A stretch of DNA of 34,991 nt from Acidobacteriota bacterium (GTDB lineage: Bacteria; Acidobacteriota; Terriglobia; Bryobacterales; Bryobacteraceae): positions 1 through 34,991 of the forward strand of contig VFZX01000034.1 of NCBI GenBank assembly GCA_016871015.1, in the 5' to 3' direction. The position numbers were made by a program, and so were the translations under genes. How positions within the stretch are numbered: position 1 is the stretch's first letter; every line of letters starts with the position of its first letter. The notes under the pieces were generated by a model. The model saw only the letters and a program-made list of their open reading frames with translations. It had not been told where the DNA came from and made no database searches. Below, piece by piece: positions 1 to 32,667 of the stretch.

Positions 1-54
1 TTCGTCATAGCCTACCGCTGCGAGTGTGGAAGACTCGACGGCTGTGATTGTCAT
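1..54 (-). CDS. KTSC domain protein, N-terminal fragment cut by the window edge
   Basis: An ATG at 52-54 reads leftward off the window and gives 18 residues, MTITAVESSTLAAVGYDE. The pattern V-x-S-S-x-L-x-x-V-G-Y-D is the start of the KTSC domain, a small domain of about 60 residues found alone or attached to nucleic-acid-related proteins; its biochemical role is poorly defined. The start is well supported: AAGGAGG lies 7 bases before the ATG. A candidate promoter and a leader hairpin sit directly upstream. The rest of the protein is outside the window, so length and any extra domains are unknown. Confidence 0.72.
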   Translation of the reverse strand, partial: MTITAVESSTLAAVGYDE

Positions 55-56
55 GC

Positions 57-80
57 GATCGCCTCCTTGTGGAGGCAATC
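57..80 (-). promoter_or_regulatory. Leader hairpin that buries the Shine-Dalgarno of the KTSC gene
   Basis: Read on the minus strand, arm 80-71 (GATTGCCTCC) pairs with arm 66-57 (GGAGGCGATC) around the four-base loop ACAA at 70-67. All ten pairs form, one as a G-U wobble. On the plus strand the same position is a C-A mismatch, so the fold suits minus-strand RNA better. The Shine-Dalgarno AAGGAGG is made of the loop end plus the 3' arm, so the closed hairpin should hide it. The hairpin fills almost all of the predicted leader. A regulatory role is inferred. Confidence 0.6.
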
Positions 81-90
81 GCCCTAAAAC

Positions 91-119
91 AGGATATCAC
101 AAAAATGTTCTTAAGTGAA
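91..119 (-). promoter_or_regulatory. Candidate sigma70-type promoter of the KTSC gene
   Basis: On the minus strand TTCACT (119-114) and TATCCT (96-91) are separated by 17 bases, four of six matches each to the -35 and -10 consensus. Initiation would fall near 84-85 and give a leader of about 31 bases, nearly all of it the SD-hiding hairpin. The -35 overlaps the last codons of the neighbouring hydrolase gene. Confidence 0.4.
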
Positions 120-121
120 CA
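101..121 (-). terminator. Weak intrinsic-terminator-like hairpin at the end of the hydrolase gene
   Basis: On the minus strand TGTTC (121-117) pairs with GAACA (110-106) around a six-base loop that contains the TAA stop, followed at once by five T residues (105-101). The stem has only five pairs, so termination would be weak. The same bases overlap the promoter proposed for the KTSC gene. Confidence 0.3.
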
Positions 122-2108
122 GTATTGTTCCTAGGCATGACAGGCCGACCCCATGCGTCGACAGGCATTCAAGGTACCATAGCTGCGCGGTGGCAGGTTC
201 CGTGATCCGCGGTACGGTCAGGCGCATCTGATAGACGCCGGCCGCGCCGGGAAGCAGTCTCACTGATGCTGTAGCATCCGTTAGCGAATGAAGGGTCTCC
301 CCCACCCGAAGGCGGTATCCGGACTTGGAGTCACTCATGCGAATCAAGGCACCCGTGGCGTCCGGATGGCCAGTGACCGGCAGGGTACTCACGGGACGGA
401 GCTTCAGATTCGTCAGATAAAGGAGGACCGTCTGGCCAGCACGGGCCGGATCCGCTGGAGTCGCGGCTTCCCCTGAGCGCTCGTGGACTGCGAGCGCGTT
501 GCCATCCGCTCCACGGAAGAAGTCGCTCCATCCGCTGTTCCGGTTGACCAGCAGTGCGCTGGTCCGGCCATCCTGTTCGACCGTCAACGCAGTCGTAGCG
601 GTTCGGGTCTCCCATGGGACCTGCACTCTGAGCCGCTGCAGCTTCCCGCCATCCTCAATTTCCAGGAACGCGCCGGACTCGGCCCCGCCGAACACAACCC
701 GTATCCCGAATTGAGATCGCGGATACGGGAACCCGGTCGGACGCCAGAGCGCAGGCAGTCCCTGCAGTCCGCTCACGATCATCGTGATCAGGGACCCAGG
801 CTGCCAGCTCGCGGGCATCCCGCTCGCGGCCGATACAACGGACCGCACATCAATCCCCGGCTCCGGATCGGGAAGGAATGTGCCGGCCGGCGGTCGCGGC
901 GCGCCACAATCGAGTAGCTGGTTGTGACCTGCGGCGAGGACGCTCCATGCGGGTTTGAATCCGCGCGAGCGATCCTCGAACGCCAGCCCCCAATGTCCGT
1001 TGAGCGACGCCTCCCCGGGCGGCAGCGACCACACCGGCGACGACCAGAGCGCCGGGGCGTCATAGAGGGTCCAATAGGCAGTCTTGTTGATGCCCAAGGC
1101 CTGGAACGCACACAGGGACGCCCGCAGCCATTCGGACTGGCCTTGCAGGTCCACCGTAGGCGCGCCATTTTCTCCAAGCGCCATCACCGGAGCGTCCGAG
1201 GAGCCGAAGGGTGACGAGATGCCGTACTCCGCGACGAACAACCGTTCGGCCGGAACGGCTCCTTCTCCGGTGGTGAGTTCGCGGAGGGAGGACTCGATCG
1301 CTTCCGGGTCCGGGCCAAAGACGTAGGTGTAAACCAGGTCCGGTCCGGCGGCCTCGCCGAGCTCGAACGACAAGTGGCGCCGCATCGAAGCGTAACGTTC
1401 CCGCGCGACCGCGGCATCAAGCCTGTATCCGCTCTCCCGGCCTCGGGACGGAAGGAACAGAAAAGTGATCAACGGCGTTTCGCCAGCCTTCCGCTTGAGC
1501 GCGGCGTACACCTTGCGCCAGAGCCGGCTGTATGGATTCGGTTGCGCGGGATCGTCGGCTGGCGCAGGCTCGCTGGCGTACAGCATCCCCCAGGCGGAAA
1601 TGTTCTTGTGCCGCGGCCCAAGGTATTCGATGAAGACCGAAGCCCAGCGCGCGATTTCTTCCGCGCGCTGTTCCACCGCGGTGGCGCTCAGGACATCCAT
1701 GTCTTCGTTGAAGGGCGTGTGCACGAAGTGCGGGATGACCCCCAAGCCGTGGCGGCCAGCGAGCGCGATGAACTCGTCGAGGGCCTCCCATTGACGGCGC
1801 GGCGACAGCCTGGGATCCGGAAATGCGAAGCCCGCCGGCTCGAGTTGTTTGGTGGATCCTTTGCGATGGAAGTCTGCGAACGTGGGCTGATCCCAGAGGT
1901 AGACGTGCAGTGTGTTGAAGCCGGACCGTTGAAGAAGTTCCATGTCGGTGGCGGCGAGCTGGCGTACCGGAAGCCCCGTGGCCCGGTCGGCTGAATGCCA
2001 GTCATAGAGCATCCGGAAATAGGGATGGCCGCGGGGCGCGTAATTGATCCCGCGCCACTCCGCCGCCTGACAGGCGGTTGTCAACAACAGGAGCCACGCC
2101 GGCCTCAT
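111..2108 (-). CDS. Secreted GH5-like glycoside hydrolase with TIGR03437-like C-terminal domain
   Basis: 665 residues. A short signal peptide (about 1-16) precedes a TIM-barrel-like region (about 17-400) opening with W-R-G-I-N-Y, as in clan GH-A cellulase/mannanase-type enzymes. Plausible catalytic glutamates are E180 in YASEP (the usual N of NEP is S here) and E294 in VAEYG. Residues about 420-655 match the domain common in Solibacter proteins: an SVVSAAS...PGSL opening and LLPGAAGVYQMRLTVP near the end. The gene is last in the receptor-transporter-hydrolase run, 30 bases after the transporter, which suggests action on the substrate imported there. No strong Shine-Dalgarno precedes the ATG. 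The exact family and substrate cannot be read from sequence. Confidence 0.72.
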   Translation of the reverse strand: MRPAWLLLLTTACQAAEWRGINYAPRGHPYFRMLYDWHSADRATGLPVRQLAATDMELLQRSGFNTLHVYLWDQPTFADFHRKGSTKQLEPAGFAFPDPRLSPRRQWEALDEFIALAGRHGLGVIPHFVHTPFNEDMDVLSATAVEQRAEEIARWASVFIEYLGPRHKNISAWGMLYASEPAPADDPAQPNPYSRLWRKVYAALKRKAGETPLITFLFLPSRGRESGYRLDAAVARERYASMRRHLSFELGEAAGPDLVYTYVFGPDPEAIESSLRELTTGEGAVPAERLFVAEYGISSPFGSSDAPVMALGENGAPTVDLQGQSEWLRASLCAFQALGINKTAYWTLYDAPALWSSPVWSLPPGEASLNGHWGLAFEDRSRGFKPAWSVLAAGHNQLLDCGAPRPPAGTFLPDPEPGIDVRSVVSAASGMPASWQPGSLITMIVSGLQGLPALWRPTGFPYPRSQFGIRVVFGGAESGAFLEIEDGGKLQRLRVQVPWETRTATTALTVEQDGRTSALLVNRNSGWSDFFRGADGNALAVHERSGEAATPADPARAGQTVLLYLTNLKLRPVSTLPVTGHPDATGALIRMSDSKSGYRLRVGETLHSLTDATASVRLLPGAAGVYQMRLTVPRITEPATAQLWYLECLSTHGVGLSCLGTILFT

Positions 2109-7037: not shown

Positions 7038-7694
7038 ATGGAATTGACGCGGATCCGCCAACAGCGCGCGACCGATGAAGTCTACAGCGCGCTGCGGCAG
7101 GCGATCCTCACGCACGTCTTCCAGCCCGGGGAGCGGCTGAACATTCCGGACATAGCGGGCAAGCTGGGGGTGAGCCTGACGCCGGTGAGGCATGCGATCC
7201 AGGCGCTGGCGGCGGAGGGGCTGATCTCGATCCAACCGCGGAGCGGGACGTATGTAGCGAGCTTCACGGCCCGGGACATCGAGGAGACGTTCGACATCCG
7301 GTGCGCGCTCGAATGTCTGGCGGCAGAATCAGCGGTGTCGCGCATCACGGCGGCGGAGCTCGGCCGGCTGCGGGAGCTGCTGGCGGCGATGGACGGGGAG
7401 GTCCGGGACGAGGCGCACAACGCCGAGTTCCACGGGATCCTGGTGCGGGCGGCGGGGAATCAGAAGTTGGCGGAGATGTACGAGGGCTTGAAGGCGAACA
7501 TCCAGATTGCGCGGGTCCATCTGGCGGAAGGCTACCGTGGGGCGCGGTTGGTACAGGAGCGTGAGGAGCATCGCAGGATCTATGAGGCTCTTGACGCACG
7601 GGACGCGGTCCGGCTGCAGCAGGAGTTGCGGGTCCATATCCAAAGGGCGAAGCGGTCGTTGGCGGCGAGTTGGGCGGCTCCGGCTGGGGTTTAG
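7038..7694 (+). CDS. GntR-family transcriptional regulator, FadR/FCD subfamily
   Basis: 218 residues. The N-terminal winged helix-turn-helix spans about 10-75, with GERLNIPDIAGKLGVSLTPV at its core and the wing near RSGTYV. An all-helical FCD ligand domain follows (about 80-205). N128, H132, H178 and H200 sit where FCD proteins bind a metal ion used to hold carboxylate ligands; N replaces the more usual D at the first site. It is divergent from the receptor-transporter-hydrolase operon, the usual place for the local regulator. FCD proteins often sense sugar acids or other small carboxylates, consistent with the adjacent hexuronate-like transporter. Its TAG overlaps the TAA of the convergent lipid kinase by four bases. 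Confidence 0.9.
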   Translation: MELTRIRQQRATDEVYSALRQAILTHVFQPGERLNIPDIAGKLGVSLTPVRHAIQALAAEGLISIQPRSGTYVASFTARDIEETFDIRCALECLAAESAVSRITAAELGRLRELLAAMDGEVRDEAHNAEFHGILVRAAGNQKLAEMYEGLKANIQIARVHLAEGYRGARLVQEREEHRRIYEALDARDAVRLQQELRVHIQRAKRSLAASWAAPAGV

Positions 7695-8608
7695 CTCGAA
7701 GCCCACACCGAAATCGCCTTTGGAATCAAGCTCACCTCCACCGGCAGCGTTCCCAGCGGCTCCCCGTCCACCTCGATCGACACCGGAGATTGAGCATCCG
7801 CGGCGATGCTCTTCGCATGGAAGTGCCGGGTTTTCGGATGAACATACAGGTTGTCGGAATACAGCACCTTGATGTCGCGCGCGAGCTCGTACATCCCCAG
7901 TGCCTCGATCACCGTGACCTCCAGCAATCCGTCGTCGAGCCGGGCCCGCGGACACACATGCATGCCACCGCCATGGAACCGCCCATTGCCGATCGCGATG
8001 TTCAGGATCCGGTGCCGGGTCCCCGCCGGCTCGCCGTCCAGCCGCAACTCGACGATCTTGGGCGTGTAGCGCAGGAACACTTCGCCCGTGGCCCAGAAAA
8101 ATGCAGCCTTCCCGCTGACGCTGCTCAGGAAGTTCTTTGCGCGCGCGGCCACCTCACCGCCCATTCCGAAGCTGACCACGTTGATGAAGAAGCGCGTGCG
8201 GATCTGGCCTTGATAGTCGCGGTAGCGAAGCCGGCCCACATCCACAGGACGCGGATGGCCATGGCGCAGAACCTCGATCGCCTGGTCCACGCCACCGATA
8301 TTCAGGCTGCGCTTGAAATCGCCGCCGGTGCCGATCGGCACGAGCGCGAGAGAGGCCGCGGGGTTCACCGGGACATCCTGCTGGAAAAACCCGTTGACCA
8401 CTTCGTTGACGGTCCCGTCGCCGCCGACCGCCAGGATCCGGTCGAAGCCCTCCTTCAACGCGAACCGGGTTAGCTCCGCCGCCTCGCCGGGTTCCCGTGT
8501 GATCCGGACTTCGAGACCTTGGAGGCCAAGCCGCCGCTCGATCGCGGGCCACACTCGTCCCGCACGGCCGCCGGCCGACGCCGGATTGATCACGGCGCAA
8601 GTGGTCAT
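7691..8608 (-). CDS. Diacylglycerol/sphingosine-kinase-like lipid kinase (DagK/YegS family)
   Basis: 305 residues. The catalytic domain opens with INPASAGGRAG (7-17) and has the GGDGT nucleotide-binding motif at 62-66, followed by VNEVVNGF. The C-terminal half forms the beta-sandwich typical of YegS/DgkB/LCB5 proteins. Members phosphorylate diacylglycerol, ceramide, sphingoid bases or related lipid alcohols with ATP. The frame stays open further upstream, but the ATG at 8608 is chosen because MTTCAVINPASAGG is the family N-terminus and it overlaps the previous stop as ATGA. It is the last gene of the five-gene lipid operon, so it may phosphorylate that pathway's product. The substrate is not predictable. 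Confidence 0.88.
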   Translation of the reverse strand: MTTCAVINPASAGGRAGRVWPAIERRLGLQGLEVRITREPGEAAELTRFALKEGFDRILAVGGDGTVNEVVNGFFQQDVPVNPAASLALVPIGTGGDFKRSLNIGGVDQAIEVLRHGHPRPVDVGRLRYRDYQGQIRTRFFINVVSFGMGGEVAARAKNFLSSVSGKAAFFWATGEVFLRYTPKIVELRLDGEPAGTRHRILNIAIGNGRFHGGGMHVCPRARLDDGLLEVTVIEALGMYELARDIKVLYSDNLYVHPKTRHFHAKSIAADAQSPVSIEVDGEPLGTLPVEVSLIPKAISVWASS

Positions 8609-9579
8609 GCGCGGGCCTTCAATTCGTGCATTGTCGCGGCGAGTGTCTCCACCGGATCGCGCGGGTTCAGTCCCAGTTCGCGATGCGCCTTGGCGCAGTT
8701 GCAATACCAGAACACGCCGGACATTTGAATGGTTGCGTCCTCGACATCGAATTTCCGGCCGGCTATGGGCATCACCTTGCGCAGCAGCGGCGCCACCAGT
8801 AACGACAGCCAGGGAGGCGAACTCATCCACGGCGCCCGGATCCCGGCCAGCCGCGCCGCTTCCCCGATGATCCGGGCGAAAGGCCAGTTCGCGCCGCCCA
8901 GCAGGTAGCGCTCGCCGGGCCGGCCGCGATCCATTGCCGCGATCAGCGCCGCCGCGCAGTCGCGTGCGTCGATAAAGCTCGCGCCGCCCACGGGCAGCGA
9001 CAGGAACTGGCCTTCGAGCAACCGTTCCAGATCCTTGGTCGAGGACCGGCGTTCGTCGCCCGGCCCCAACAGCAGCGACGGGTTGACCACCACCAGCGGA
9101 ATCCGCCGCCTCTGCCACTCGTCGAAACAGAGCCGCTCGGCCGCGATCTTGCTCATGTAGTAGGCCCAGTCCCGCACCACATCTTCCTTGTAGCCGGAAT
9201 CTTCCGCGTGCTCAACCGGGGCCTGGCTGACAGCGATGGTTCCGGAGGTGCTCACAACCACGACGCGCTCCACTGATTCGCGCGCGGCGGCATCGAGCAC
9301 GTTGCGCGTCCCGTCGACATGCGCCTGGTAGAGCCGCTGCGAATCCGCTGGATCGCGCGACACGAAGCCGGCAAGGTGGTACACACGCGCCGCGCCACGC
9401 ACCGCCCGCGCCACGTCGTCAGCGCGCGTGATGTCGCCTTGCACCGCCTCGACAGGGGAGCCGGACGGCGCCGCGCCGCGGCACAGGATCCGCACGTGAG
9501 CTTCGCCCCGCGCGAGCAACTGTTGCACCAGGTGCTTGCCCAGGAATCCCGTGGCGCCAGTGACGAGGACCGGTTTCAT
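8605..9579 (-). CDS. NAD(P)-dependent epimerase/dehydratase, extended SDR (HpnA/dihydroflavonol-reductase-like)
   Basis: 324 residues. The Rossmann motif TGATGFLG is at 7-14, an acidic GDI lies near 48-50, and the catalytic Y140-x-x-x-K144 (YYMSK) is preceded by a Ser/Thr cluster at 110-112. The overall pattern resembles hopanoid-associated sugar epimerases and 3-beta-HSD/dihydroflavonol reductases. Start and stop overlap both neighbours as ATGA, so it belongs to the lipid operon. There it could reduce a keto-lipid or modify a sugar head group. A comparable NAD-epimerase-type reductase acts in alphaproteobacterial ceramide synthesis (recalled), but no serine palmitoyltransferase is visible here. 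Confidence 0.85.
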   Translation of the reverse strand: MKPVLVTGATGFLGKHLVQQLLARGEAHVRILCRGAAPSGSPVEAVQGDITRADDVARAVRGAARVYHLAGFVSRDPADSQRLYQAHVDGTRNVLDAAARESVERVVVVSTSGTIAVSQAPVEHAEDSGYKEDVVRDWAYYMSKIAAERLCFDEWQRRRIPLVVVNPSLLLGPGDERRSSTKDLERLLEGQFLSLPVGGASFIDARDCAAALIAAMDRGRPGERYLLGGANWPFARIIGEAARLAGIRAPWMSSPPWLSLLVAPLLRKVMPIAGRKFDVEDATIQMSGVFWYCNCAKAHRELGLNPRDPVETLAATMHELKARA

Positions 9580-10232
9580 CGTAGATCCAGCACCGGCCAG
9601 CCGCGCGCCTTCGCGACCCGCCGGAGTCCGGAGGACGGATTCACCGCGGCGGGCTGTGAGACGGCTTCGAGCATCGGCAGGTCCGACGTGCTATCGGAAT
9701 ACGCCTTCGCGTTGTCCGGTGAGACATTATACCCGGTGAGCAGACGCTGGACCGCGTCCGCTTTCGTGCGTCCCGCGAGCAGTGGCTGGACCAGCCGCCC
9801 GGTGGCGAATCCACTGCGGTCGAACTCGAGGCGGTTCGCAACCACCTCATCGAAGCCAAGCCGCCGGGCCAGCGGCGTCACGGCGAAGTCGAGCGACCCG
9901 GTGAGCAGCACGGTGCGGTACCCAGCGGCGCGATCCCGTGCCACCAGGTCCGCCGCACCGGGGAAGGTCGCGGGGTCGAGCACGGCGCGCGCCATCGCTT
10001 CCGCGCAGTCCTCGAGCCAGGGGCGCTGCATGCCCCGGTATTGGCGGAAGAAGACCACGTTGAACCATTCGCGGGAGACAAGCTCGACGGCGAACGACGG
10101 ATAGGAGATCCACAGCCACGGGATCCGGAGAGCCCGTTGGGGATGGTGCCGCGCGAACCAGGCGTACTGATGGATCACGTTGCTCGACACCAGGGTCCCG
10201 TCCATGTCGTAAAAAGCCAGGCCGCGGATCAT
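9576..10232 (-). CDS. HAD-IB family phosphatase (SerB/CicA-like, lipid-associated type)
   Basis: 218 residues. The HAD nucleophile motif is FYDMDGTL with D9 and D11; motif II is TGSLDF, the Lys motif is GRTKADAV, and the acidic motif IV is SDSTSDLPML. The insert after motif I (about 20-60, ending QYRGM) matches the TIGR01490-type subfamily, which is often found near or fused to PlsC acyltransferases. Upstream in-frame sequence is a shadow of the neighbouring acyltransferase gene; the ATG at 10232 overlaps its stop as ATGA. Likely reaction: removal of phosphate from a phospholipid or phospho-intermediate made by the operon. The substrate is inferred from context only. Confidence 0.85.
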   Translation of the reverse strand: MIRGLAFYDMDGTLVSSNVIHQYAWFARHHPQRALRIPWLWISYPSFAVELVSREWFNVVFFRQYRGMQRPWLEDCAEAMARAVLDPATFPGAADLVARDRAAGYRTVLLTGSLDFAVTPLARRLGFDEVVANRLEFDRSGFATGRLVQPLLAGRTKADAVQRLLTGYNVSPDNAKAYSDSTSDLPMLEAVSQPAAVNPSSGLRRVAKARGWPVLDLR

Positions 10233-10816
10233 GCGGCGGCCATGTTGGCGAAGTTCTTCTTGTGGCGGAAGGCGATGAAGGCGAGCAGCGCAGCCCCAAG
10301 CGCCGCTTGCTGCCAGCCACTGAAGACGAGCAGCAGCACGACGAACACGAGCGCGGCGCTGAGGCTTGCGATCGCGCCGCGTTCCTTCCAGCCGGCCTTT
10401 GAGCCGATGATCCGCCAGATAATGTACCAGAGGACGCACGGCAGCACGATGCGCGGAAACAGGTACAGCATCACACCCGCCGCGGTGGCCAGTCCTTTGC
10501 CGCCATTCCAGCCCAGGAACGGCGAGTAGCAGTGGCCGGCAATGGCGGCGAAGCCGAACAGCCAGGGAACCGTGACCGGGTCGTCCGGACGGCTGAACAG
10601 CCAGATCGGGAACAGGCCCTTGCCGGCGTCTCCAATCAGGCACAGCGCACTTCGCCACTTGCTGTAACGCAGGACATTGTTGAAGCCCGGATTGCCCGAT
10701 CCGAACGTCGTGATGTCGACGCCCGTGCCCCACATCGAGACAACAGCGAAAGGGATCGAGCCAATGAGGAAACACAGCAGAAGCTTGCCGCACAAGGCGG
10801 GCGAAAGCTCAGGCAT
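10229..10816 (-). CDS. PlsY-like glycerol-3-phosphate acyltransferase
   Basis: 195 residues with five or more hydrophobic segments. The three PlsY loops are present but altered: SGNPGFNNVLR at 40-50 (canonical SGNPGATN), GHCYSPFLGWNGGKGLAT at 94-111 (canonical GHxFPxFLxFKGGKGVAT), and RHKKNFAN at 184-191. PlsY moves an acyl chain from acyl-phosphate to glycerol-3-phosphate in the membrane. Acyl-phosphate is normally made by PlsX, which is not in this window. The ATG lies inside the end of the upstream fused ligase gene (8-base overlap) and the stop overlaps the phosphatase start. The altered first loop and the operon suggest a specialised paralogue rather than the housekeeping enzyme. Confidence 0.85.
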   Translation of the reverse strand: MPELSPALCGKLLLCFLIGSIPFAVVSMWGTGVDITTFGSGNPGFNNVLRYSKWRSALCLIGDAGKGLFPIWLFSRPDDPVTVPWLFGFAAIAGHCYSPFLGWNGGKGLATAAGVMLYLFPRIVLPCVLWYIIWRIIGSKAGWKERGAIASLSAALVFVVLLLVFSGWQQAALGAALLAFIAFRHKKNFANMAAA

Positions 10817-13376
10817 AGATCGCGTGGATGGCTTCCTTTACCTTTTCCCGCAGATCGCGCGCCGAAAGCCCGTCCTGCGTGGCGATCGGAGGGGCGCCGC
10901 GGGAGACGAAAATCCCCCGCCGCTCCTGCATCGCAACCGGAATCACCGGAGCCCCGGCCGCGATCGCCGCTCCGAGCGCACGCAAACGGATCCGGCAGCG
11001 CCGGGCGGAGATACCAATGGGGCTGTCGGGGAACGCGACCACAACTCCGCCGCGCTTGAGTGCGGCTTCAAGTTCCGCCGGGGAATGGGCTACCAGCGGC
11101 GACAGCATGCTTGCGATCCATTCGGGGAGCGCGTGCAAGGCGCTGTCTCCGGCCAACGTCACGTCGCCTTGGATCACGGACACGAGCGCGAGCGGATCCA
11201 GCCGCGCGGCGCGGTTGGCGACCACCACCGCGGGGCCCTTGAGGTGGGAGCCCGAGTGCGTGGCGCGGCGTCCGATGATCGACAGCAGCCGCGTCGCGGT
11301 GGGCCGCGAGGTCCCGGCGGCAGCGGCGTATCCGCGCGCCACCGTTCCGAAGAGCGCGCTCCGGGCCGATCGCTTCATCTGCTTGGCGGTCCGTTTGGCG
11401 AGCGCGCCCAGGTTCCGCCACCAGAGCGTGGTCATCTCGACCCACGGCGCTGGTACCGGCGCTCCCAGCTTGCCGTCGCGGTACAGCGACCGCGCCTCGC
11501 CGCGCCGGATTTTTCCGTTCGACGTCTTGGGGAGCGTATTGGGCGGGATCAAGCATACCTCGTCGGGGAACTCTCCGAGCAGGCTCTTGACCGCCGTGCG
11601 GACCTCGGCGTCCACGCGCGGAATGTCGGACTCTTCGACCGCCGTGGTCTCGGCGATCACCACCAGCTTCTCCGATCCACGCTCCTTGTCAGGCGCGCCG
11701 ATCACCGCCACCCCGCTTGGACGGACGCCCGGGGCTTTGGCGGCCGCGGCTTCCACGAGCTCCGGCGAAATCGGACGGCCTTCGCGAATGATCACGTCGT
11801 TGGCCCGGCCCGTGACGTACAACTCGCCGTTTTCGATGAATCCGGTGTCGCCCGTGTCCATCCAGCCATCGTGGATGGAAGATTCCGTGAGCCGCGGATT
11901 GTGCTGGTACTCCTTGCAGCGCGAAGGACCGCGGAATTGGATGCGTCCATTGTCCCCGATCCGGATTTCATGGCCTGGCAGTGCGGGGCCAGTCGAGAAC
12001 ACACCGCCGCTGAGCAGCGGACCACGGTCTGGCGGCGGAATCGTGAGAGCCACTGAGCTTTCGGAAAGGCCGTAGCACGGTGTCATGGCTTCAGCCCGGA
12101 ATCCCGAGCTTGCGAACCGCCGCGTGAAGGCTTCGACGGTGGAGGGCAGCACCTGCTCCCCGGCGTTCACCGCCGTGCGCCAGCAGCTCAAGTCGATGCC
12201 TTCGATCGACCACATCGGAATCCGGCGGGCGCACAACTCGTATGCGAAGTTCGGTGCGGCTGAAAGTGTCCCGCGCGAATCGTGAATCGCCCACAGCCAA
12301 CTCTCGGGCCGCTCCAGGAATTCCTGCGGCGGGATGACGGTGAGCGGCAGGCCGTGATAAAGGCTGAACAGCCAGCAGCCGACGAGTCCGAGGTCGCTCG
12401 CGAGCGGCAGCCAGGTGACCACCGCGTCGTCGCCGCGGACTCCGGTGGCTTGCCCGATCGCGCGCAGGTTCGCGAGCACGCTGGCGTGCGTGAGGACGCT
12501 GCCTTTCGCGTCGGCCGTGGTCCCCGAAGTGTACTGAATCAGCGCGACATCCGAAGGTTCGGGCAGCCGGCACGAGGAATGGAGCCCGGTGTCGGTCAGG
12601 TCCGCGATCGTAAAGACATCGACGTTCCGGAGGTTCACGCTGACCACGCGAGACACCGGCCGGACCTGATTGAACACGATCAGGTACTTCACCTCAGCGT
12701 TGCGCAGGACATGGATCTGCCGCTCGACGTAGCGGGCGAGACTCGCGCCTGGGGCCGGGGGATAGATCGGGACCGGAATTCCACCCGCCATCGCCACGCC
12801 GAAGAAGGCGGCGAAGAAGTCCGCACCGGTGGGCAGCAGGATCGCGACGGTCTGATTGCGCTTGAGTCCTTCCGAGATCAGGCCGCGCGCCACCACGGTG
12901 GCGGCCTCGAGGATCTGCGCCGCCGTGAGTCCCTGTCCACCGCCTTGTTCGAGCAGGTGGATGTGGATCCGGCCGGCTGAGGCGTCCGCCTGGTAGTTCA
13001 GGACCTCGACCAGATTGCGGGCGTGGACCGGCGGGGGAGCAGCGTCTCCCGACGGTGGGACGATCCGGTACTCGGACCGCGCCGCTTTGTCCTCGGTGCC
13101 CTGCTGGATTGCCTTCGCCCAACTGGCTGCGGTGTCGGCGACGTCAGCGATCTCATCGGGAATCTCGACGTCGAGCCTGGTCTCGCAGCGGACCACGAGC
13201 TCGACCAGGTCCAGGCTCTGGAGTCCGAGGTCGCGCTCAAAGCTGGACGATGGCGTGGCCTTGGCGCCAAGGCGCTCCTTGCCCTGCTCGGCGAGCATCT
13301 CGCGCACGACGTCGAGGATCCGCACATCGAGCGGAGCGGCGGCTTGAGCGGGCGCGCTGGTCCCCGTGGCTTCCAT
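10809..13376 (-). CDS. Fused acyl carrier protein / fatty acyl-AMP ligase / degenerate PlsC-like acyltransferase
   Basis: 855 residues. Residues about 15-95 are an acyl carrier domain with DLGLQSLDLVEL; S54 is the phosphopantetheine site. Residues about 120-640 are an adenylating enzyme of the FAAL/acyl-ligase type: YTSGTT at 282-287, WLPLASDLGLVG near 322, YGLSES near 435, MDTGD at 506-510 and PKTSNGKIRR with K622. Residues about 690-855 resemble PlsC, but the HX4D motif reads N-R-A-A-R-L-D with R722 in place of His and D727 kept, and the third motif is FPDSPIG rather than FPEGTR. The ligase probably loads a fatty acid onto its own carrier domain. The ATG at 13376 is preferred because AGGA lies 8 bases upstream; an in-frame TTG at 13382 is the alternative. 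First gene of the operon. Confidence 0.85.
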   Translation of the reverse strand: MEATGTSAPAQAAAPLDVRILDVVREMLAEQGKERLGAKATPSSSFERDLGLQSLDLVELVVRCETRLDVEIPDEIADVADTAASWAKAIQQGTEDKAARSEYRIVPPSGDAAPPPVHARNLVEVLNYQADASAGRIHIHLLEQGGGQGLTAAQILEAATVVARGLISEGLKRNQTVAILLPTGADFFAAFFGVAMAGGIPVPIYPPAPGASLARYVERQIHVLRNAEVKYLIVFNQVRPVSRVVSVNLRNVDVFTIADLTDTGLHSSCRLPEPSDVALIQYTSGTTADAKGSVLTHASVLANLRAIGQATGVRGDDAVVTWLPLASDLGLVGCWLFSLYHGLPLTVIPPQEFLERPESWLWAIHDSRGTLSAAPNFAYELCARRIPMWSIEGIDLSCWRTAVNAGEQVLPSTVEAFTRRFASSGFRAEAMTPCYGLSESSVALTIPPPDRGPLLSGGVFSTGPALPGHEIRIGDNGRIQFRGPSRCKEYQHNPRLTESSIHDGWMDTGDTGFIENGELYVTGRANDVIIREGRPISPELVEAAAAKAPGVRPSGVAVIGAPDKERGSEKLVVIAETTAVEESDIPRVDAEVRTAVKSLLGEFPDEVCLIPPNTLPKTSNGKIRRGEARSLYRDGKLGAPVPAPWVEMTTLWWRNLGALAKRTAKQMKRSARSALFGTVARGYAAAAGTSRPTATRLLSIIGRRATHSGSHLKGPAVVVANRAARLDPLALVSVIQGDVTLAGDSALHALPEWIASMLSPLVAHSPAELEAALKRGGVVVAFPDSPIGISARRCRIRLRALGAAIAAGAPVIPVAMQERRGIFVSRGAPPIATQDGLSARDLREKVKEAIHAIYA

Positions 13377-24790: not shown

Positions 24791-25641
24791 TCGCGCGCCT
24801 TGAGGTAGGTCTCCGGATTGTAGCCGGTGACCGGCGTGTGGGCCTTGGCGCAGAATCCGGCAGCGGTGTCTCCACCCATCGCTTGTGCCAGAACGTTCTT
24901 GAGGTCCTTCGCGGCGGGCTTTGACTCGATCGACTTCGCCAGCGCGATGTCTTCCGACGCATTGCGCCGTAATAGCGTGCGGACGCTGGGATTCGCGGAG
25001 ACGTAACGTTCGCTCTTGCCGCACACGTAGCCGCGCAGGACGCTGAACGAGGTATCGGCGCTTACGGCGGTCAAAGGTGCGACGGCCCCTGAAGTCATGG
25101 TCACCAGTGGAATCGCCGCGGGCTGGATCCGGAGCTCTAGCGGCGAGATAATCCAGTCCGCACCCACGTTGAGCTGTGCTTCGACGCGAATCCGGCGGAT
25201 TGGTGACACCGAAGGGATGAACAGATCCACGACGTAGACGTCCGCCTTCCGGGCCGGAATCTGCGCGGGGTCCCCGATCGTTGTGGTCAGCGGGAGCTTC
25301 ACCTCTTCAAGCTTGTCCGGAATCCAGCGCTCGCCTTCCTGGTTGTAGACCACGCGGTAGACGTGCTGCTGGACGGCGTTCTCCGGATTCGCCCCGAAGT
25401 AGAGGTGATAGGGCTTGCCCAGCGGCGCGGTGATCACCAGATGGTACGTCGCGTGGCCGTTGCGGGGGACCGCGGGCGAGAGAATCTCACGCGGCCTGCC
25501 CGCCGCGTCAGGCGGGATGATTGCGCCGTCCGGACCCACGCGGCGGAACTCGGATAGCCATTGGACTTCGGGGTAGGGCTGAGTCTGCGCCCCCAGGGAA
25601 GCGCAGACCAGCGCCAGGTATGGAAGCCGGAGTCCCGTCAC
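24763..25641 (-). CDS. Secreted protein of unknown function downstream of RNase E/G
   Basis: 292 residues from a GTG start that overlaps the RNase E/G stop as GTGA. A signal peptide is likely (MTGLRLPYLALVCASLGAQT). The middle is beta-rich (GHATYHLVITAPLGKPYHLY, KADVYVVDLFIPSVSPIRRI) and suggests an immunoglobulin-like or other sandwich fold. The C-terminal third is helical, with two Cys residues near VCGK and GFCAK. I do not recognise the family. It is the last gene of the mre/rnG transcript, so an envelope role is possible. The final 28 bases overlap the convergent oxidoreductase gene. Confidence 0.7.
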   Translation of the reverse strand: MTGLRLPYLALVCASLGAQTQPYPEVQWLSEFRRVGPDGAIIPPDAAGRPREILSPAVPRNGHATYHLVITAPLGKPYHLYFGANPENAVQQHVYRVVYNQEGERWIPDKLEEVKLPLTTTIGDPAQIPARKADVYVVDLFIPSVSPIRRIRVEAQLNVGADWIISPLELRIQPAAIPLVTMTSGAVAPLTAVSADTSFSVLRGYVCGKSERYVSANPSVRTLLRRNASEDIALAKSIESKPAAKDLKNVLAQAMGGDTAAGFCAKAHTPVTGYNPETYLKARDYLYRLAIE

Positions 25642-27911
25642 ACCAGATCGAACTTCTCGGGATGCAGCAGCGGATCGCTCTTCAGCAGCACCGTCCGCCC
25701 CAGCACCTCTTCGATCTCGTGGATGTAGTTGGCGCCCTGCGCCTTGAGCGCCTTGGCGACATCGGGGTGGGCTCGGAGGACGACGCTGTTGCCCTCAACG
25801 GCGCGGGCAATCTTGTGCGCCTCGGTCAGGATCTCGCCGATCACCGTCTGCACACTCTTGACGTACCCGGATCCCTCGCAGGTTGGGCAGGAAGTGCACA
25901 GCGCCTTCTCCAGACTCTGCTTGACGCGGCGGCGGGTGATGGCCACGAGTCCGAAGTCGTTAAACTGCAGGATCTTGTACGGAGCGCGGTCCAACCGCAT
26001 AGCCTCTTCGAGCGCCTGCATCACCTTCTGCCGGTTCTTGCGCTCGTCCATGTCGATGAAGTCGACCACGATGATTCCGCCCAGGTCGCGCAGGCGCACC
26101 TGCCGGACGATCTCCTTGATCGCTTCAAGGTTGGTCTTGACGATGGTGTCCTCGAGGCGGTTCGACTTGCCGACGAACTTGCCGGTGTTGATGTCGATCG
26201 CCACCAGCGCCTCGGTCTGGTTGATCACGATGTATCCGCCGGACTTGAGCCAGACCTTCGGCCGCAGCGCCTTCTCCATCTCCGAGGTGATGTTGAAGAA
26301 GTCGAAAATGGGCGTGTCCCGCTGGAAGAGCTTCACGCGCGGAACCAGCGCCGGCTGGAAGCGCTCGAGGAAGCCCACGATCTTCTCGTACAGGTCCTCG
26401 TTGTCGACAATGATCGACTTGAAGTTGTCGTTCACCTGGTCGCGCAGGGTGCGGGTGACCAGATCCAGATCGTGATGAAGCAGGCACGGAGCATTGCGCT
26501 TCTCGGCCCGCTTGCGGATGTCGAGCCAATGGTCGTGGAGGTACTTCATGTCCGCCGCGATCTCGGCCTCGGTGCGGCCCTCTCCGGCGGTACGGACGAT
26601 GAATCCGCCGCTTAAGCCCTGGCTCTGGGCGAGGACGATCTTTTTCAACCGCTGGCGCTCTTCGTCGGTGGAGATCTTGCGCGACACACCCGAGCGGTCC
26701 TCGGTGGGCATGTACACGACGTAGCGGCCCGGCATGGCGATGTGGGACGTGATCCGGGCGCCTTTTTGGCCCAGCGGCTCTTTGCGCACCTGGACAATGA
26801 TCTCCTGGCCCTCCTTCAAGAGGTCGCTGATGGAGGGCACCGGCGGGCGGTCCCGGTCCTTGTCTTTGTCACGCGCTTCGGGCCTGGATTCCGGTCTCTG
26901 CTCCGGACGTGGCGCCTCCTGCCGGAGTTCGGCGCGCTCCGGGCGGCCATCGCGGCCACGGCGGCGGAACTTGCGTCCGCGGGGGTGCGGATAGCGTGCT
27001 GCGGGCTGCTCGCGCGCTTCGGCGATCCGCTCTTCGCCGGAAGCTTCTTCGATTGGTTCATCCGGCTGGTCATTGGTTCCGGCGCCTGGATCCTCGATCT
27101 CCACCGCGGGCTCTTCTTCAGATTCGTCGAGCGGCGGATTCCAGTCATCAGCAGCGGCCTCAGCGGCCTCCTGAGCGGCATCAGCCACTTCATCTTCCGT
27201 GATGGCCCTGCTCACGGCGTCATCGCCGGGCTCGGGGGCCGCCAGCTCTTCGGGCTCTTCAACGGCGGGTTCCGCCTCGGCAGCGGTATATTTGGCGATC
27301 GACTCACCGGGCAGTACCAGCGGCTCAAGCTCCGGTTCCGGATCGGGTTCGGGTTCCGGATCGGTGGCGGAATCATCTTCGGCGGACGCTACGTCCTGTC
27401 TGTTCTCCTCGCCCTCGGGCAGAGAGGTGAACTTGGACTCCGGCATACCGCGTCCCCGCCGCCTGCGCCGTCTGCGTCCGCGGCGGTCACGGTCGTTCTC
27501 CCGGTCGCCCTGCTCGCGGGCCGGCGGCGCCTGCGTGGGGCTGCCGCCTGGAGCGGCGTCCGCACTGGCGGCGGGCTGGGCAGCGGCCTCGGGTTCCGGC
27601 AGCGCGGCGGGGGTTGGCTGGGCAGCGGCCAGTGGCGGCTTCCGCTTCCCCTTGTCATCGATCCGGTCGAACTCCTCGTCGGACTCCTCAAAGAAGTCGG
27701 AAACGTAGAGGAACGCATCCCGTTCCAGCCCGACATGCACGAACGCGGACTGCATTCCAGGGAGGACACGCGTGACCCGGCCCTTGTGAATGCTTCCCGC
27801 TAATGAATACTCGTTAGACCGTTGAAAATATACCTCAACGAGCTGATCGTCTTCCACGACGGCGAGTTTGGTTTCGTGGCGATTTGCCGAAATCACCAAC
27901 TCTTTGATCAT
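25638..27911 (-). CDS. RNase E/G family endoribonuclease with a ~275-residue disordered insertion in its S1 domain
   Basis: 757 residues. The N-terminal MIKELVISAN and the S1 half-domain (about 35-75, HKGRVTRVLPGMQSAFVHVG) are normal. Residues about 82-357 are low-complexity: an Arg block at 143-155, acidic Glu/Pro repeats (about 180-300) and a basic Pro-rich end. The S1 domain then resumes (VRKEPLGQKGARITSHIAMP). Catalytic Mg ligands D573 (VAIDINTG) and D617 (VVDFIDMDERKN) are intact, and the Zn-link Cys residues are C672, C675 and C678. The enzyme cuts single-stranded RNA in mRNA decay and rRNA maturation. The ATG at 27911 has GGAG 7 bases upstream. It lies downstream of the mreBCD-mrdA-rodA genes, like cafA near mreBCD in enterobacteria. 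Confidence 0.92.
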   Translation of the reverse strand: MIKELVISANRHETKLAVVEDDQLVEVYFQRSNEYSLAGSIHKGRVTRVLPGMQSAFVHVGLERDAFLYVSDFFEESDEEFDRIDDKGKRKPPLAAAQPTPAALPEPEAAAQPAASADAAPGGSPTQAPPAREQGDRENDRDRRGRRRRRRRGRGMPESKFTSLPEGEENRQDVASAEDDSATDPEPEPDPEPELEPLVLPGESIAKYTAAEAEPAVEEPEELAAPEPGDDAVSRAITEDEVADAAQEAAEAAADDWNPPLDESEEEPAVEIEDPGAGTNDQPDEPIEEASGEERIAEAREQPAARYPHPRGRKFRRRGRDGRPERAELRQEAPRPEQRPESRPEARDKDKDRDRPPVPSISDLLKEGQEIIVQVRKEPLGQKGARITSHIAMPGRYVVYMPTEDRSGVSRKISTDEERQRLKKIVLAQSQGLSGGFIVRTAGEGRTEAEIAADMKYLHDHWLDIRKRAEKRNAPCLLHHDLDLVTRTLRDQVNDNFKSIIVDNEDLYEKIVGFLERFQPALVPRVKLFQRDTPIFDFFNITSEMEKALRPKVWLKSGGYIVINQTEALVAIDINTGKFVGKSNRLEDTIVKTNLEAIKEIVRQVRLRDLGGIIVVDFIDMDERKNRQKVMQALEEAMRLDRAPYKILQFNDFGLVAITRRRVKQSLEKALCTSCPTCEGSGYVKSVQTVIGEILTEAHKIARAVEGNSVVLRAHPDVAKALKAQGANYIHEIEEVLGRTVLLKSDPLLHPEKFDLV

Positions 27912-28026
27912 CGAAAATCTCCGGTTCCGAAGCTGCCGCAACGGAGAGGAGACCGGCCCGGCGTCGTCCGGACGCGGCAACGGCCATCAAACTGTCCTTG
28001 GGCGCTTCTGTCATGAAATGAAATGC
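27912..28026 (-). other. Leader region between rodA and the RNase E/G gene
   Basis: This 115-base gap is the largest inside the rod-shape transcript. It holds a GC-rich inverted repeat (GCGTC...GACGC around CGGAC, near 27961-27975) and the GGAG Shine-Dalgarno of the nuclease. An open frame of 59 codons starts at 28014 and runs out of frame into the nuclease gene, ending at 27835; its product is unremarkable. RNase E genes elsewhere regulate themselves through their leaders, so this gap is a candidate control site, by analogy only. Confidence 0.4.
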
Positions 28027-29124
28027 CTACTCTACGATTCGCTTGAGCCGGACGTTATTCACCAACCCCAGCATCAGGAACGTGGACAATGTGCTCGATC
28101 CGCCATAGCTCATTAGCGGAAGGGGGATCCCGGTAATCGGCATCTGGCCCACCACCATCCCGGCGTTCACCAGGATGTGGAAGAGCAGCAGCGCCGCCAC
28201 CCCCATGCAGATAAACGTCCCCGAACGGTCGAGGGCAGTCTGGGCGTTCTGGACGATCTGCATGAGCAACAGGAAATAAAACACGAAAATCACGACAACG
28301 CCTGAAAAGCCGTGCTCCTCGCTGAAGGTGGCTAAGATGAAATCGGTGTGGGGTACTGGAAGGAACTGAAGACGGGTCTGATACCCCTTCGCTGGTCCGC
28401 GGCCGAGCAACCGGCCCGAACCTACCGCGATTTTGGACTGAATCACCTGATACCCGGAGCCGTGCGGATCCGATTCCGGATCGATGAAGCTGTCCACCCG
28501 CGCCCTCTGGTACGGCTTGAGGACGAAATGGTAGGCGAACACCGGAACCACAACCGCCAGGACACCGAAAATCGCGATGTGCCGCCACCGGAGTCCGGCA
28601 AGCAGAATGCCAACGCCCGCCACCGGAAGGTACGTTAACGCGGTTCCCAAATCCGGCTGGCGCATCACAAGGAGCATCGGCACTGCCACCAAACCCGCAA
28701 GCTTGAGCAATTCGCGGCCATGCAGCGTGTCGCTTTTCGTGGCTGTCAAATATCTGGCTACTAGTAATATTATCACCAGCTTGCCGAACTCCGACACCTG
28801 AAAATGAAATCCGAACGCGAGAGGAATCCACCTTCGCGACCCGAACACCTTGGCGCCAGCCGACAGCACCACCACCAGGAGGATAATCGTGACCCAATAC
28901 AGGAGCATCGACTTGCCCATTTGGGAGTGGTAGTCGATGCTGGCGATCACCCAGAAACCCACCAGGCCCGCGGCGACGAACAGAGTCTGGCGCCACCAGG
29001 CGCTCCCCCAGCGGGTCTCTTGGGTTGCGCTGTAGATCTGCAGGATGCCGATGGCGCTGATCGCCAGGGCCAGTCCGAGCATGACCCAATCGAGATTCCT
29101 CAAACGGCGCAGGCTCAAATTCAT
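28027..29124 (-). CDS. rodA: RodA, SEDS-family peptidoglycan glycosyltransferase
   Basis: 365 residues with about ten membrane segments. RQPDLGTAL (155-163), SRRWI (96-100), the GRGPAKGYQTRLQFLPVPHT region with the conserved Asp D261, and the PLPLMSYGGSS end are all SEDS hallmarks. RodA polymerises lipid II into glycan strands during side-wall growth, paired with PBP2. The start overlaps the PBP2 stop as ATGA, so the two partners are translated together. The gene sits in the mre operon as expected. Confidence 0.95.
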   Translation of the reverse strand: MNLSLRRLRNLDWVMLGLALAISAIGILQIYSATQETRWGSAWWRQTLFVAAGLVGFWVIASIDYHSQMGKSMLLYWVTIILLVVVLSAGAKVFGSRRWIPLAFGFHFQVSEFGKLVIILLVARYLTATKSDTLHGRELLKLAGLVAVPMLLVMRQPDLGTALTYLPVAGVGILLAGLRWRHIAIFGVLAVVVPVFAYHFVLKPYQRARVDSFIDPESDPHGSGYQVIQSKIAVGSGRLLGRGPAKGYQTRLQFLPVPHTDFILATFSEEHGFSGVVVIFVFYFLLLMQIVQNAQTALDRSGTFICMGVAALLLFHILVNAGMVVGQMPITGIPLPLMSYGGSSTLSTFLMLGLVNNVRLKRIVE

Positions 29125-31004
29125 CGCGCCGTGTCCCGTGCGCGAGCCACAAGCGGAGGCGCCGGCCGCCGGGACTTCTTGTCGAAGTACGCCTTCACGA
29201 CATCGCGGACGATCGGCGCCGCGCGGTCCCCGTGCTCTCCGTGCTCATAGAGCGCCGCCACCACGATCTCCGGGTTGTTCCGCGGGGCGAACCCCACAAA
29301 CCAGGCGTTGTCCGACAGCGCGATGCCGAGCTTTCTTGAGCGGATCAGGTCGTTTGAGGCCAACTGCGCGGTTCCGGTTTTTCCGCACAGCTCGACCCCG
29401 GGAATCACCGCGCCGCGCGCCGTTCCACCCTGGTTGACCACTCCGAACATTCCGTTGACCACGCGGGCTACGTTGTCCGGTTTCCAGTTTGCCTTCCGCG
29501 GCGGGTCGAGCGCGGGAGGCGGGTCGAGCAGCAGGTGTGGCCGGTGCCACTCTCCGCCGCGGGCGAGCCCCCCAATGGCGTGCGCGAGCTGGAGGGGTGT
29601 CACGGTAAGCGCTCCCTGCCCGATGACCACCGAAAGCGTCTCCCCCGAAAGCCAACGCTGACGTTGCGTCCGCATCTTCCACTTGCGCGACGGGACAGTG
29701 CCCTCGGATTCGGCTGGCAGATCGATTCCGGTCTTTTTTCCCAGCCCGGCCAGATCGGCGTATTCCGCGACCCGGTCGATGGTGATCTTGGCGCCGATGT
29801 TCTGCTGGAAATAGATATTGCAGGAGTGGATCAACGCCCGGTTCAGGTTCATGTATCCGTGGCCGCTGCGGATGTTGCACTTAAAGTAGCGGTCGTAGAA
29901 CTGCGCGCCTCCGGTGCACACGGCATGCGAGCCTTCTTCCACAATACCGTCCTCAAGGCCGGCCATCGCCATCAGGGGCTTGAAGGTTGATCCCGGTGCG
30001 AGAACGGCTTGGATGGCGCGGTTCATCATCGGGAAGTCGGCGCTGTCGCGGATATCAGCCCAGTCCTTGGCGCGGATCCGGCCGACGAACCGGTTCGGAT
30101 CATAGGCCGGACGGCTTACCATCGCGAGCACTTCACCGGTCCGGGCATCGAGGGCGACCACCGCGCCGCGCCGGTCCTGCATGGAGAGCTCCGCGACTGC
30201 CTGGAGGTCGAGATCGAGGGTCAGCCGGATGTCCTTGCCTGCCGCGGCTCCTTTGTGGTCGATGACTTTGAGGATTTTATTGCGGTTGTTGACCAGCACG
30301 CGCCGCTGGCCGTCGATTCCCATCAGCAGGTCGTTATACTGGCGCTCAATGCCCGTCTTGCCCACGATGTCGCCCTGCTTGTACCGCGCGAAATCAGCCG
30401 AATCGAGTTCGGACTCGCTGATCTCGCCCGTGTAGCCGATCACGTGCGCCAGCATTCCGCTCCGCGGATAAATCCGGCGGAAGGTCTGGATGACTTCGAG
30501 CTCCTGGTAGTTGTCATGGCCGCTGTGGGCTTCGATGAAGGCGAGCTCGGCCGAGGTCAGCTCGCCTTTGACATTGATGGCCTCGTACTTGGCGCGCGTG
30601 CGGTCGTAGCGGCGGAGCCGCTCGTTCAGATCTTCGCAGTCCAGATCGATCGCCTTGCAGACGGTTTGGAGATGGTCCGTCTTCAGGTTGTCGCGCGACA
30701 GGTAGAGTGAGAACGACGAGTGGTTGTCGACGATCACTCGCCCGTCGCGGTCAAGAATCCTGCCCCGGGGAGCGGGCAGGGGCTGGGAGCGGACGTAGTT
30801 TTTTTCCGCCAGTTCGTCGTAGTAGTCGGGGTCGCGGATCTGGAGCGCCCAGAATCCGGCGAGCAGGTACAAGAACACAGCCAGTACCACCCAGCGGAAC
30901 AACGTGATCCGGTTGGTGAGGGCCTTCGGATCCTCTTTCAGGACCCAGCGGATTTCCGGTTCTTTGTCTTTTTCAAGGTCGGCCGGGATGGTCGGATCCG
31001 GCAT
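29121..31004 (-). CDS. mrdA: Penicillin-binding protein 2, elongasome transpeptidase
   Basis: 627 residues. A cytoplasmic tail (1-32) and one membrane helix (about 34-55) precede the PBP dimerisation domain (APRGRILDRDGR near 78-89, and the GKTGIERQYND region near 215-225). The transpeptidase domain has S339-T-F-K342, S394-C-N396 and K542-T-G-T, so it should be active. It crosslinks peptidoglycan made by RodA along the side wall. The N-terminal tail before the helix is somewhat long and acidic. The gene starts 17 bases after mreD and overlaps rodA by four bases. Confidence 0.95.
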   Translation of the reverse strand: MPDPTIPADLEKDKEPEIRWVLKEDPKALTNRITLFRWVVLAVFLYLLAGFWALQIRDPDYYDELAEKNYVRSQPLPAPRGRILDRDGRVIVDNHSSFSLYLSRDNLKTDHLQTVCKAIDLDCEDLNERLRRYDRTRAKYEAINVKGELTSAELAFIEAHSGHDNYQELEVIQTFRRIYPRSGMLAHVIGYTGEISESELDSADFARYKQGDIVGKTGIERQYNDLLMGIDGQRRVLVNNRNKILKVIDHKGAAAGKDIRLTLDLDLQAVAELSMQDRRGAVVALDARTGEVLAMVSRPAYDPNRFVGRIRAKDWADIRDSADFPMMNRAIQAVLAPGSTFKPLMAMAGLEDGIVEEGSHAVCTGGAQFYDRYFKCNIRSGHGYMNLNRALIHSCNIYFQQNIGAKITIDRVAEYADLAGLGKKTGIDLPAESEGTVPSRKWKMRTQRQRWLSGETLSVVIGQGALTVTPLQLAHAIGGLARGGEWHRPHLLLDPPPALDPPRKANWKPDNVARVVNGMFGVVNQGGTARGAVIPGVELCGKTGTAQLASNDLIRSRKLGIALSDNAWFVGFAPRNNPEIVVAALYEHGEHGDRAAPIVRDVVKAYFDKKSRRPAPPLVARARDTAR

Positions 31005-31021
31005 CTGCGCCTGCCTTATCT

Positions 31022-31537
31022 CTACAGTTTATCCAACAACTGGAACAGAGGAACTGCGACGGCGGCATTGAGGATCGCAAACAGGAGCGCCTCACCGGGC
31101 TCGAAGCTGAACTGCTGGCCGAGGAGCGAACTGGCCAGGGTCCAGTAGAGGAGCTGGTGGACGAGGTAGAACGCGAAGGCGAATATCGCCCGGACCATGT
31201 TGTTGTCCGAGTCCATCCGCAGGCTCACCGACGCGGTCCAATAGCCTGTGAGCGTCTTGACGATCCCGAACAGCCCGAGGGGATTCTGAGACAAGGCGTC
31301 CTGCAGGAGCCCCACGCCCATGCCGATGAACAGGGCCGAGACCGGCTCCCGCCGCATCAGCCCGAAGTAGACCGTCACCAGCAGTGGCGGATCCAGGTAG
31401 GACAGGTATTCCGTAAAGAGAGGCGCTTTGACCTGGAAAGCCACCGCGACGATGGGCGCGATGATCAGGGCGAGCGGCCGCAGCCGGTACTTGCGCGCGC
31501 CAGCGTTCGGCGGCAGGTGAGCCGGAAGAAGCGACAT
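31022..31537 (-). CDS. mreD: MreD, rod-shape-determining membrane protein
   Basis: 171 residues with about five hydrophobic segments, the usual size for MreD. GMGVGLLQDALSQNPLGLFG is the most typical stretch. MreD links MreC to the elongasome in the inner membrane. The ATG at 31537 shares a base with the mreC stop (TGATG); a GTG three bases earlier is also in frame. No Shine-Dalgarno is evident, so coupling to mreC is likely. Confidence 0.9.
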   Translation of the reverse strand: MSLLPAHLPPNAGARKYRLRPLALIIAPIVAVAFQVKAPLFTEYLSYLDPPLLVTVYFGLMRREPVSALFIGMGVGLLQDALSQNPLGLFGIVKTLTGYWTASVSLRMDSDNNMVRAIFAFAFYLVHQLLYWTLASSLLGQQFSFEPGEALLFAILNAAVAVPLFQLLDKL

Positions 31538-32637: not shown

Positions 32638-32667
32638 CACCCGCTCCGTGGAAAGGAGTCACGAGCC

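Follow-up and report, generated by a model that had tools for sequence, protein, structure and literature searches.

Organization of the operon

The window, a stretch of 34,991 nucleotides, is contig C34 of G000, the genome of a soil Acidobacteriota bacterium (8.66 Mb in 720 contigs, 99.7% complete). It contains an operon of five overlapping genes, all on the minus strand, which encode a fusion of an acyl carrier protein (ACP), a fatty acyl-AMP ligase (FAAL) and a PlsC-like domain, followed by a PlsY, a HAD-IB phosphatase, an extended short-chain dehydrogenase/reductase (SDR) and a lipid kinase (Table 1). A sequence-only reading of this DNA had placed five overlapping genes at these coordinates. 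Each frame has an ATG start and one terminal stop, and the claimed overlaps of 8, 4, 4 and 4 bases between consecutive genes are exact. That reading had also named ElbD-like ether-lipid enzymes as a lead, and the lead held: the HAD protein and the SDR find their best matches in ElbB and ElbE, and counterparts of the ElbD reductase and of ElbC are encoded elsewhere in the genome.

Comparison with elb clusters

The published background given here is drawn from passages of the cited articles. In Myxococcus xanthus, elbA and elbE encode proteins of the NAD-dependent epimerase family, elbB a HAD protein, elbC a protein of unknown function and elbD a protein with fatty-acyl reductase, ligase, ACP and acyltransferase domains (PMC9131029). 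The operon elbA-E is listed as MIBiG BGC0000871 (PMC9426513). Ether lipids were strongly reduced by insertion into elbD and reduced by inactivation of elbE, and the ligase and ACP activities of ElbD were confirmed in vitro (PMC9131029).

For comparison we used the best 80 of at least 467 relatives found in a genome scan with five LarA-like operon proteins. The elb comparison loci among them (L100, L101 and L108) are from Myxococcus species other than M. xanthus, and all have the order epimerase-HAD-LarA-like-ElbD-epimerase. Within these best 80 loci, an ElbD of at least 1,000 residues was found in 37 and a fusion-type FAAL in 10 (one of them L143, with a FAAL of 613 residues). The two never occurred together in the 80 loci, many of which are short, and absences are weak. 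At the 37 loci with a classic ElbD, again with many short ones, PlsY was found in 0/37 and a kinase in 4/37. A Myxococcus-like elb cluster was also found in L102, a record titled Comamonas sp. KCTC 72670, which is probably mislabelled or contaminated.

In all six elb-bearing genomes compared, the window SDR matched the elb-cluster gene best (39-45% identity), and the next-best match did not exceed 34%, except for one match of 124 residues at 41%. The window HAD behaved in the same way (6/6 genomes, 38-46%, next match at most 36%). In FastTree phylogenies of 52 SDR and 43 HAD sequences, which drew on 15 of the 37 ElbD loci, the operon and elb genes grouped together, apart from the included paralogues, with modest support (0.85 and 0.86 in the SDR and HAD trees, respectively). 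In the reverse comparison, Myxococcus ElbE matched the operon SDR at 228 bits versus 142 bits for one other G000 candidate; for ElbB, a single G000 candidate was compared. The NCBIfam name HpnA was not adopted for the operon SDR, which scored 203.6 bits, below the cut-off of 367.65.

Like the elb operon, the operon of G000 contains relatives of ElbB and ElbE together with ligase, ACP and PlsC-like domains, and the same genomes also encode a fatty-acyl reductase of the ElbD type and a LarA-like relative of ElbC. It differs in having no one-piece ElbD. The reductase is detached on contig C10, the ligase is a non-orthologous FAAL, the ACP is at the N-terminus, the acyltransferase domain has no catalytic His, and the relative of ElbC belongs to a distant subtype and lies outside the operon (contig C168), while PlsY and the kinase have been added.

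Conservation of the gene order

The distribution of the operon was examined in 101 genomes of the family, apparently Bryobacteraceae, drawn evenly from a larger group, drafts and partly incomplete genomes included. A search with the full-length fusion (E <= 1e-60) matched 17 genomes, of which G014, G022 and G053 were excluded, only the ligase part being matched (33-38% identity). The fusion is thus present in 14/101 genomes from 11 genera. The typical order in these operon genomes is fusion-PlsY-HAD-[LarA-like]-SDR-kinase. The operon lacks PlsY in G031, and in G033 no kinase match was found next to the SDR. In G061 the operon is on two contigs, one with fusion-PlsY and the other with HAD-LarA-SDR-kinase; contig ends fall within it in G009, G021 and G051, the last being visible through HAD only. 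The fusion was also found in seven further records with Acidobacteria or Terriglobia in the title (L077, L080, L081, L084, L085, L086 and L092). The gene order, whose uniqueness to one genome was to have refuted the sequence-only reading, is therefore shared, and because it recurs in 11 sampled genera and seven further records the five-gene arrangement is more than chance.

Two other Acidobacteria loci, L088 and L090, have HAD, LarA-like, fatty-acyl reductase, SDR and kinase genes in tandem with PlsY on the other strand, which is a different arrangement of the same gene set. In L143, from a record titled Cyanobacteria bacterium RYN_339, the FAAL, HAD and LarA-like genes are together, a possible further variant. 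Record L076, titled Acidimicrobiia bacterium, is apparently the same contig as G031, and its title is probably wrong.

A fatty-acyl reductase and a LarA-like protein accompany the operon

Using the N-terminal 540 residues of Myxococcus ElbD (L101) as query (E <= 1e-15), we detected an ElbD-type fatty-acyl reductase in 14/14 operon genomes and in 0/87 of the others (Fisher 2e-17). The reductase gene directly precedes the fusion on the same contig in nine of the 14. It is detached in G000 (contig C10), G023, G088 and G054, where it is head-to-head with a plsC gene, and in G033, where the comparison showed no facing plsC gene. The PlsC facing the G000 reductase retains NHxxxxD.

ElbC of Myxococcus L101 was identified, by position and family, as a member of the LarA family (PF09861). 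A LarA-like alignment matched 13/14 operon genomes, once in each, and 0/87 others (E <= 1e-30; Fisher 2e-15). Two subtypes were recognized. An ElbC-like one is encoded alongside HAD and SDR in six operon genomes other than G000 and is 51-57% identical to L101 ElbC (five genomes measured, G061 assigned by match score). The second is encoded elsewhere in seven operon genomes including G000 and is 33-35% identical to the first (six measured). The two subtypes and ElbC alike retain the first catalytic His of LarA and have no His in the stretch where the second is expected. In this stretch ElbC and the operon-type proteins have an Asn, whose exact column is uncertain.

The best structure matches of the operon LarA-like profile were 9q2u and 9q3j, which represent a single-His LarA branch of the nickel-pincer 2-hydroxy-acid racemase superfamily with unknown reaction (PMC12611868). 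ElbC and the operon proteins resemble them in keeping the first His alone. Unlike the solved proteins, for which PMC12611868 suggests a role in carbohydrate metabolism, they occur in a lipid-synthesis neighbourhood. LarC (PF01969) was of no use as a nickel-pincer marker, as it occurs in 97/101 genomes without discrimination. Internal stops in the LarA-like matches of G000, G023, G088 and G054 were also set aside: the profile had overrun the gene, and open frames span all but the end or ends of each match (checked base by base in G000 and by open frames in the other three).

The operon PlsY is distinct from canonical PlsY

In a PF02660 search of the same 101 genomes, the operon PlsY was the sole match in G000. 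An operon-type PlsY is the only one in nine of the 14 operon genomes (118-137 bits; 118 bits in G000), eight of them at least 91% complete and the ninth, G088, 77%. The other five (G021, G031, G061, G074 and G092) have a canonical PlsY (162-176 bits). Among the 87 genomes without the operon, a canonical PlsY was found in 80, fragments in two and no match in five. Absence of canonical PlsY was associated with the operon (Fisher 1.5e-6, or 7.6e-6 if fragments count as missing).

In phylogeny the operon PlsY falls into a separate clade (support 0.96) and does not group with the PlsY of relatives (118 versus about 153-188 bits). Like canonical PlsY, it matches PF02660 end to end and keeps the C-terminal HxxN, but it terminates soon after this motif and its C-terminus is shorter. 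The rest of the PlsX/PlsY/PlsC pathway is also encoded in G000, with PlsX on contig C306 and a PlsC with NHxxxxD elsewhere. The pathway differs in that no canonical PlsY was found in nine of the 14 operon genomes. Because 80 of the 87 non-operon genomes carry a different, canonical PlsY, the operon protein looks like a replacement of the ordinary PlsY and not like its orthologue. From its being the sole PlsY and from its separate clade, the genus appears to begin its glycerolipids with the operon enzyme. The sequence-only reading had taken a single PlsY in the genome as a sign of housekeeping orthology. The single PlsY is literally true of G000, but the protein does not look like the ordinary orthologue.

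Domains of the fusion protein

The ligase of the fusion is of the FAAL type, since FAALs make up most of its top-scoring family models and of its relatives with solved structures. At E <= 0.001 Pfam gave no match to the acyltransferase domain PF01553 anywhere in the fusion, the last 200 residues included. When the C-terminal 244 residues alone were submitted to structure prediction (mean pLDDT 82, much lower in the first 80 residues), the best match was Thermotoga PlsC 5kym (Foldseek E 2e-7, TM-score about 0.5). The catalytic His of the PlsC HX4D motif is replaced by Arg in 20/21 aligned fusion homologues, that of the window included; L080 alone has His. Because of this Arg, the fused domain is probably inactive as an acyltransferase. 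The ACP-ligase-PlsC fusion proposed earlier thus stands for ACP and ligase by Pfam and for a PlsC-like fold by predicted structure, but not for an active PlsC. In L068 and L071, which are the fusions of G033 and G074, the ACP domain has no serine at the aligned phosphopantetheine site.

Other features of the window

The features of the window are listed in Table 1, the genes outside the operon in its last four rows.

Table 1. Operon genes, fusion domains and further genes of the window.
Feature	Position	Strand	Remarks
Fusion: ACP + FAAL + PlsC-like domain	10809-13376	-	855 aa; Pfam PP-binding, AMP-binding, AMP-binding_C
Fusion, ACP	residues ~20-95		N-terminal
Fusion, FAAL	residues ~120-640		middle
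Fusion, PlsC-like domain	residues ~700-855		C-terminal; NRAARLD; PDSP replaces EGTR
Operon-type PlsY	10229-10816	-	195 aa; Pfam G3P_acyltransf (PF02660)
HAD-IB phosphatase, closest to ElbB	9576-10232	-	218 aa; Pfam HAD; DMDGT motif
Extended SDR ("epimerase"), closest to ElbE	8605-9579	-	324 aa; Pfam Epimerase
YegS/BmrU-type lipid kinase	7691-8608	-	305 aa; Pfam DAGK_cat + YegS_C; GGDGT motif
GntR/FCD regulator	7038-7694	+	converges on the kinase gene; gene ends share 4 bases
Cell-shape cluster	28027-32640	-	RodA/FtsW, penicillin-binding protein (PBP) and MreC genes near one another
RNase E/G	25638-27980		adjoins the RodA/FtsW-PBP-MreC cluster
Open reading frame	111-2108	-	665 aa; no Pfam match at 1e-5

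Discussion

We consider it rather probable (about 0.62) that the operon is an elb-type cluster, with separate or non-orthologous parts standing in for the one-piece ElbD and with PlsY and a lipid kinase as additions, and that it represents an AgpS-independent route to alkyl-ether glycerolipids into which the first step of phospholipid synthesis has been drawn. Directly observed are the sequence relationships, the gene order, the co-occurrence, the missing catalytic His and the PlsY pattern, and from these we infer every reaction of the route.

In the proposed route, the FAAL domain would convert a fatty acid to acyl-AMP and load it onto the built-in ACP, and the detached reductase on C10 would reduce the acyl-ACP to a fatty aldehyde or alcohol. 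The operon PlsY would form lysophosphatidate from glycerol-3-phosphate and acyl-phosphate, with PlsX encoded on C306, and the PlsC beside the reductase, which has kept its catalytic motif, would add the second chain. The fused PlsC-like domain may only dock or bind substrate. The presence of both a phosphatase and a kinase in one set leads us to prefer an intermediate that loses its phosphate, is altered and is then phosphorylated again. The phosphatase, SDR and LarA-like protein would together convert one of the ester-linked chains to an alkyl ether while the intermediate is dephosphorylated, and the kinase would re-phosphorylate the alkyl-acyl-glycerol and return it to phospholipid synthesis. 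A stronger version, in which the nickel-pincer (LarA-like) protein helps to make the ether bond in the AgpS-independent route and most membrane glycerolipids of the genus pass through that route, is in our opinion unlikely. If it is true, ElbC would be a member of the LarA superfamily working in lipid synthesis.

The ether route through dihydroxyacetone phosphate and AGPS would likewise need a fatty-acyl reductase. The window had been noted to lack AgpS, and none was found in the whole of G000 among three PF02913 proteins: two have glycolate oxidase or LctD as their best match, AGPS scoring far lower, and the third, judged from its reading frame, is a fusion with cysteine-rich, Fe-S-like motifs.

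Several points weigh against an ether-lipid route of the elb type. According to passages of PMC9131029, insertion into Myxococcus elbA was without effect, the effect of elbB was attributed to polarity, and no reductase or acyltransferase activity was demonstrable for ElbD. Homologues of ElbD occur in Pontiella, a genus in which, in the passages of PMC11868695, no ether lipids were found. The adenylation domain of the fusion is 25% identical to that of ElbD and not orthologous to it. The LarA-like protein of G000 is of the distant subtype, 34% identical to ElbC and on the separate contig C168, and G051 has fusion and reductase without a LarA-like match at E <= 1e-30. The genomes share ancestry (11 genera), and the Fisher values given above overstate their independence. 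Moreover, G000 encodes a PF09989 protein (contig C391), which could be the source of its ether lipids, if there are any. This family, which we take to include the Ger/PlsA ester-to-ether reductases, matches 61/101 family genomes, operon and non-operon alike, Ger and other PF09989 proteins not being distinguished.

The operon could also be related to elb by descent and yield an ester lipid. In such a salvage and remodelling route, fatty acids activated by FAAL-ACP would be used by PlsY, the phosphatase and kinase would cycle phosphatidate and diacylglycerol, and the elb-type genes would act on another part of the molecule, for instance a chain with a hydroxyl group or an uncommon head group. 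As the operon PlsY is the sole PlsY in 9/14 operon genomes, the operon probably has a part in bulk phospholipid synthesis, which suits this explanation, as does the reported action of LarA family enzymes on 2-hydroxy acids. It leaves the strict link to an ElbD-type reductase (14/14 versus 0/87), which ester lipids do not need, without a reason, and we regard it as doubtful. That ordinary housekeeping glycerolipid genes are adjacent by chance is very unlikely; it would agree with the operon PlsY being the sole PlsY of G000, but the arrangement is retained over 11 sampled genera, and the operon PlsY forms a separate clade while most operon-free relatives have the canonical one. A sphingolipid or ceramide-type cluster, with ACP, acyl-ACP ligase, a CerR-like SDR and ceramide kinase, has gene classes that overlap with those of the operon, but this theme, named in the sequence-only reading as partly similar, gained no support and is most improbable, since ElbE is the nearest relative of the window SDR in the set of genes compared (no CerR among them), such a route is not known to use PlsY, HAD or the linked fatty-acyl reductase, and no serine palmitoyltransferase was found among the 16 scanned window proteins, the genome not having been searched for it.

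The preferred reading, an elb-type ether-lipid cluster, bears on a process whose course between fatty acid and alkyl ether lipid is, even for Myxococcus, described as mostly unexplained (PMC9131029). Some Acidobacteriota produce branched tetraether lipids that are used as climate proxies. Homologues of elbD occur in many phyla, among them Acidobacteria, with 15/97 Black Sea metagenome-assembled genomes (PMC11868695). Sponge Acidobacteriota have clusters of the elbD type (PMC9426513), and several genomes of subdivision 4 contain a complete elb operon (PMC10087280). Candidatus Solibacter usitatus of subdivision 3 is an ether-lipid producer reportedly without ElbD (PMC10087280). The sequence-only reading knew no standard pathway with this exact gene set, and we found no published match either: a literature search, mostly at the level of listings and with Lorenzen 2014 outside it, returned no description of a split elb form with PlsY and none of ElbC as LarA-like.

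The split arrangement could escape searches for a one-piece ElbD. The co-occurrence defines a small candidate gene set, namely the reductase, the LarA-like protein, HAD, SDR and FAAL-ACP, and ElbC gains a protein family, LarA, from these comparisons. If the replacement of PlsY holds, an unusual lipid pathway would be tied to basic membrane building in these bacteria.

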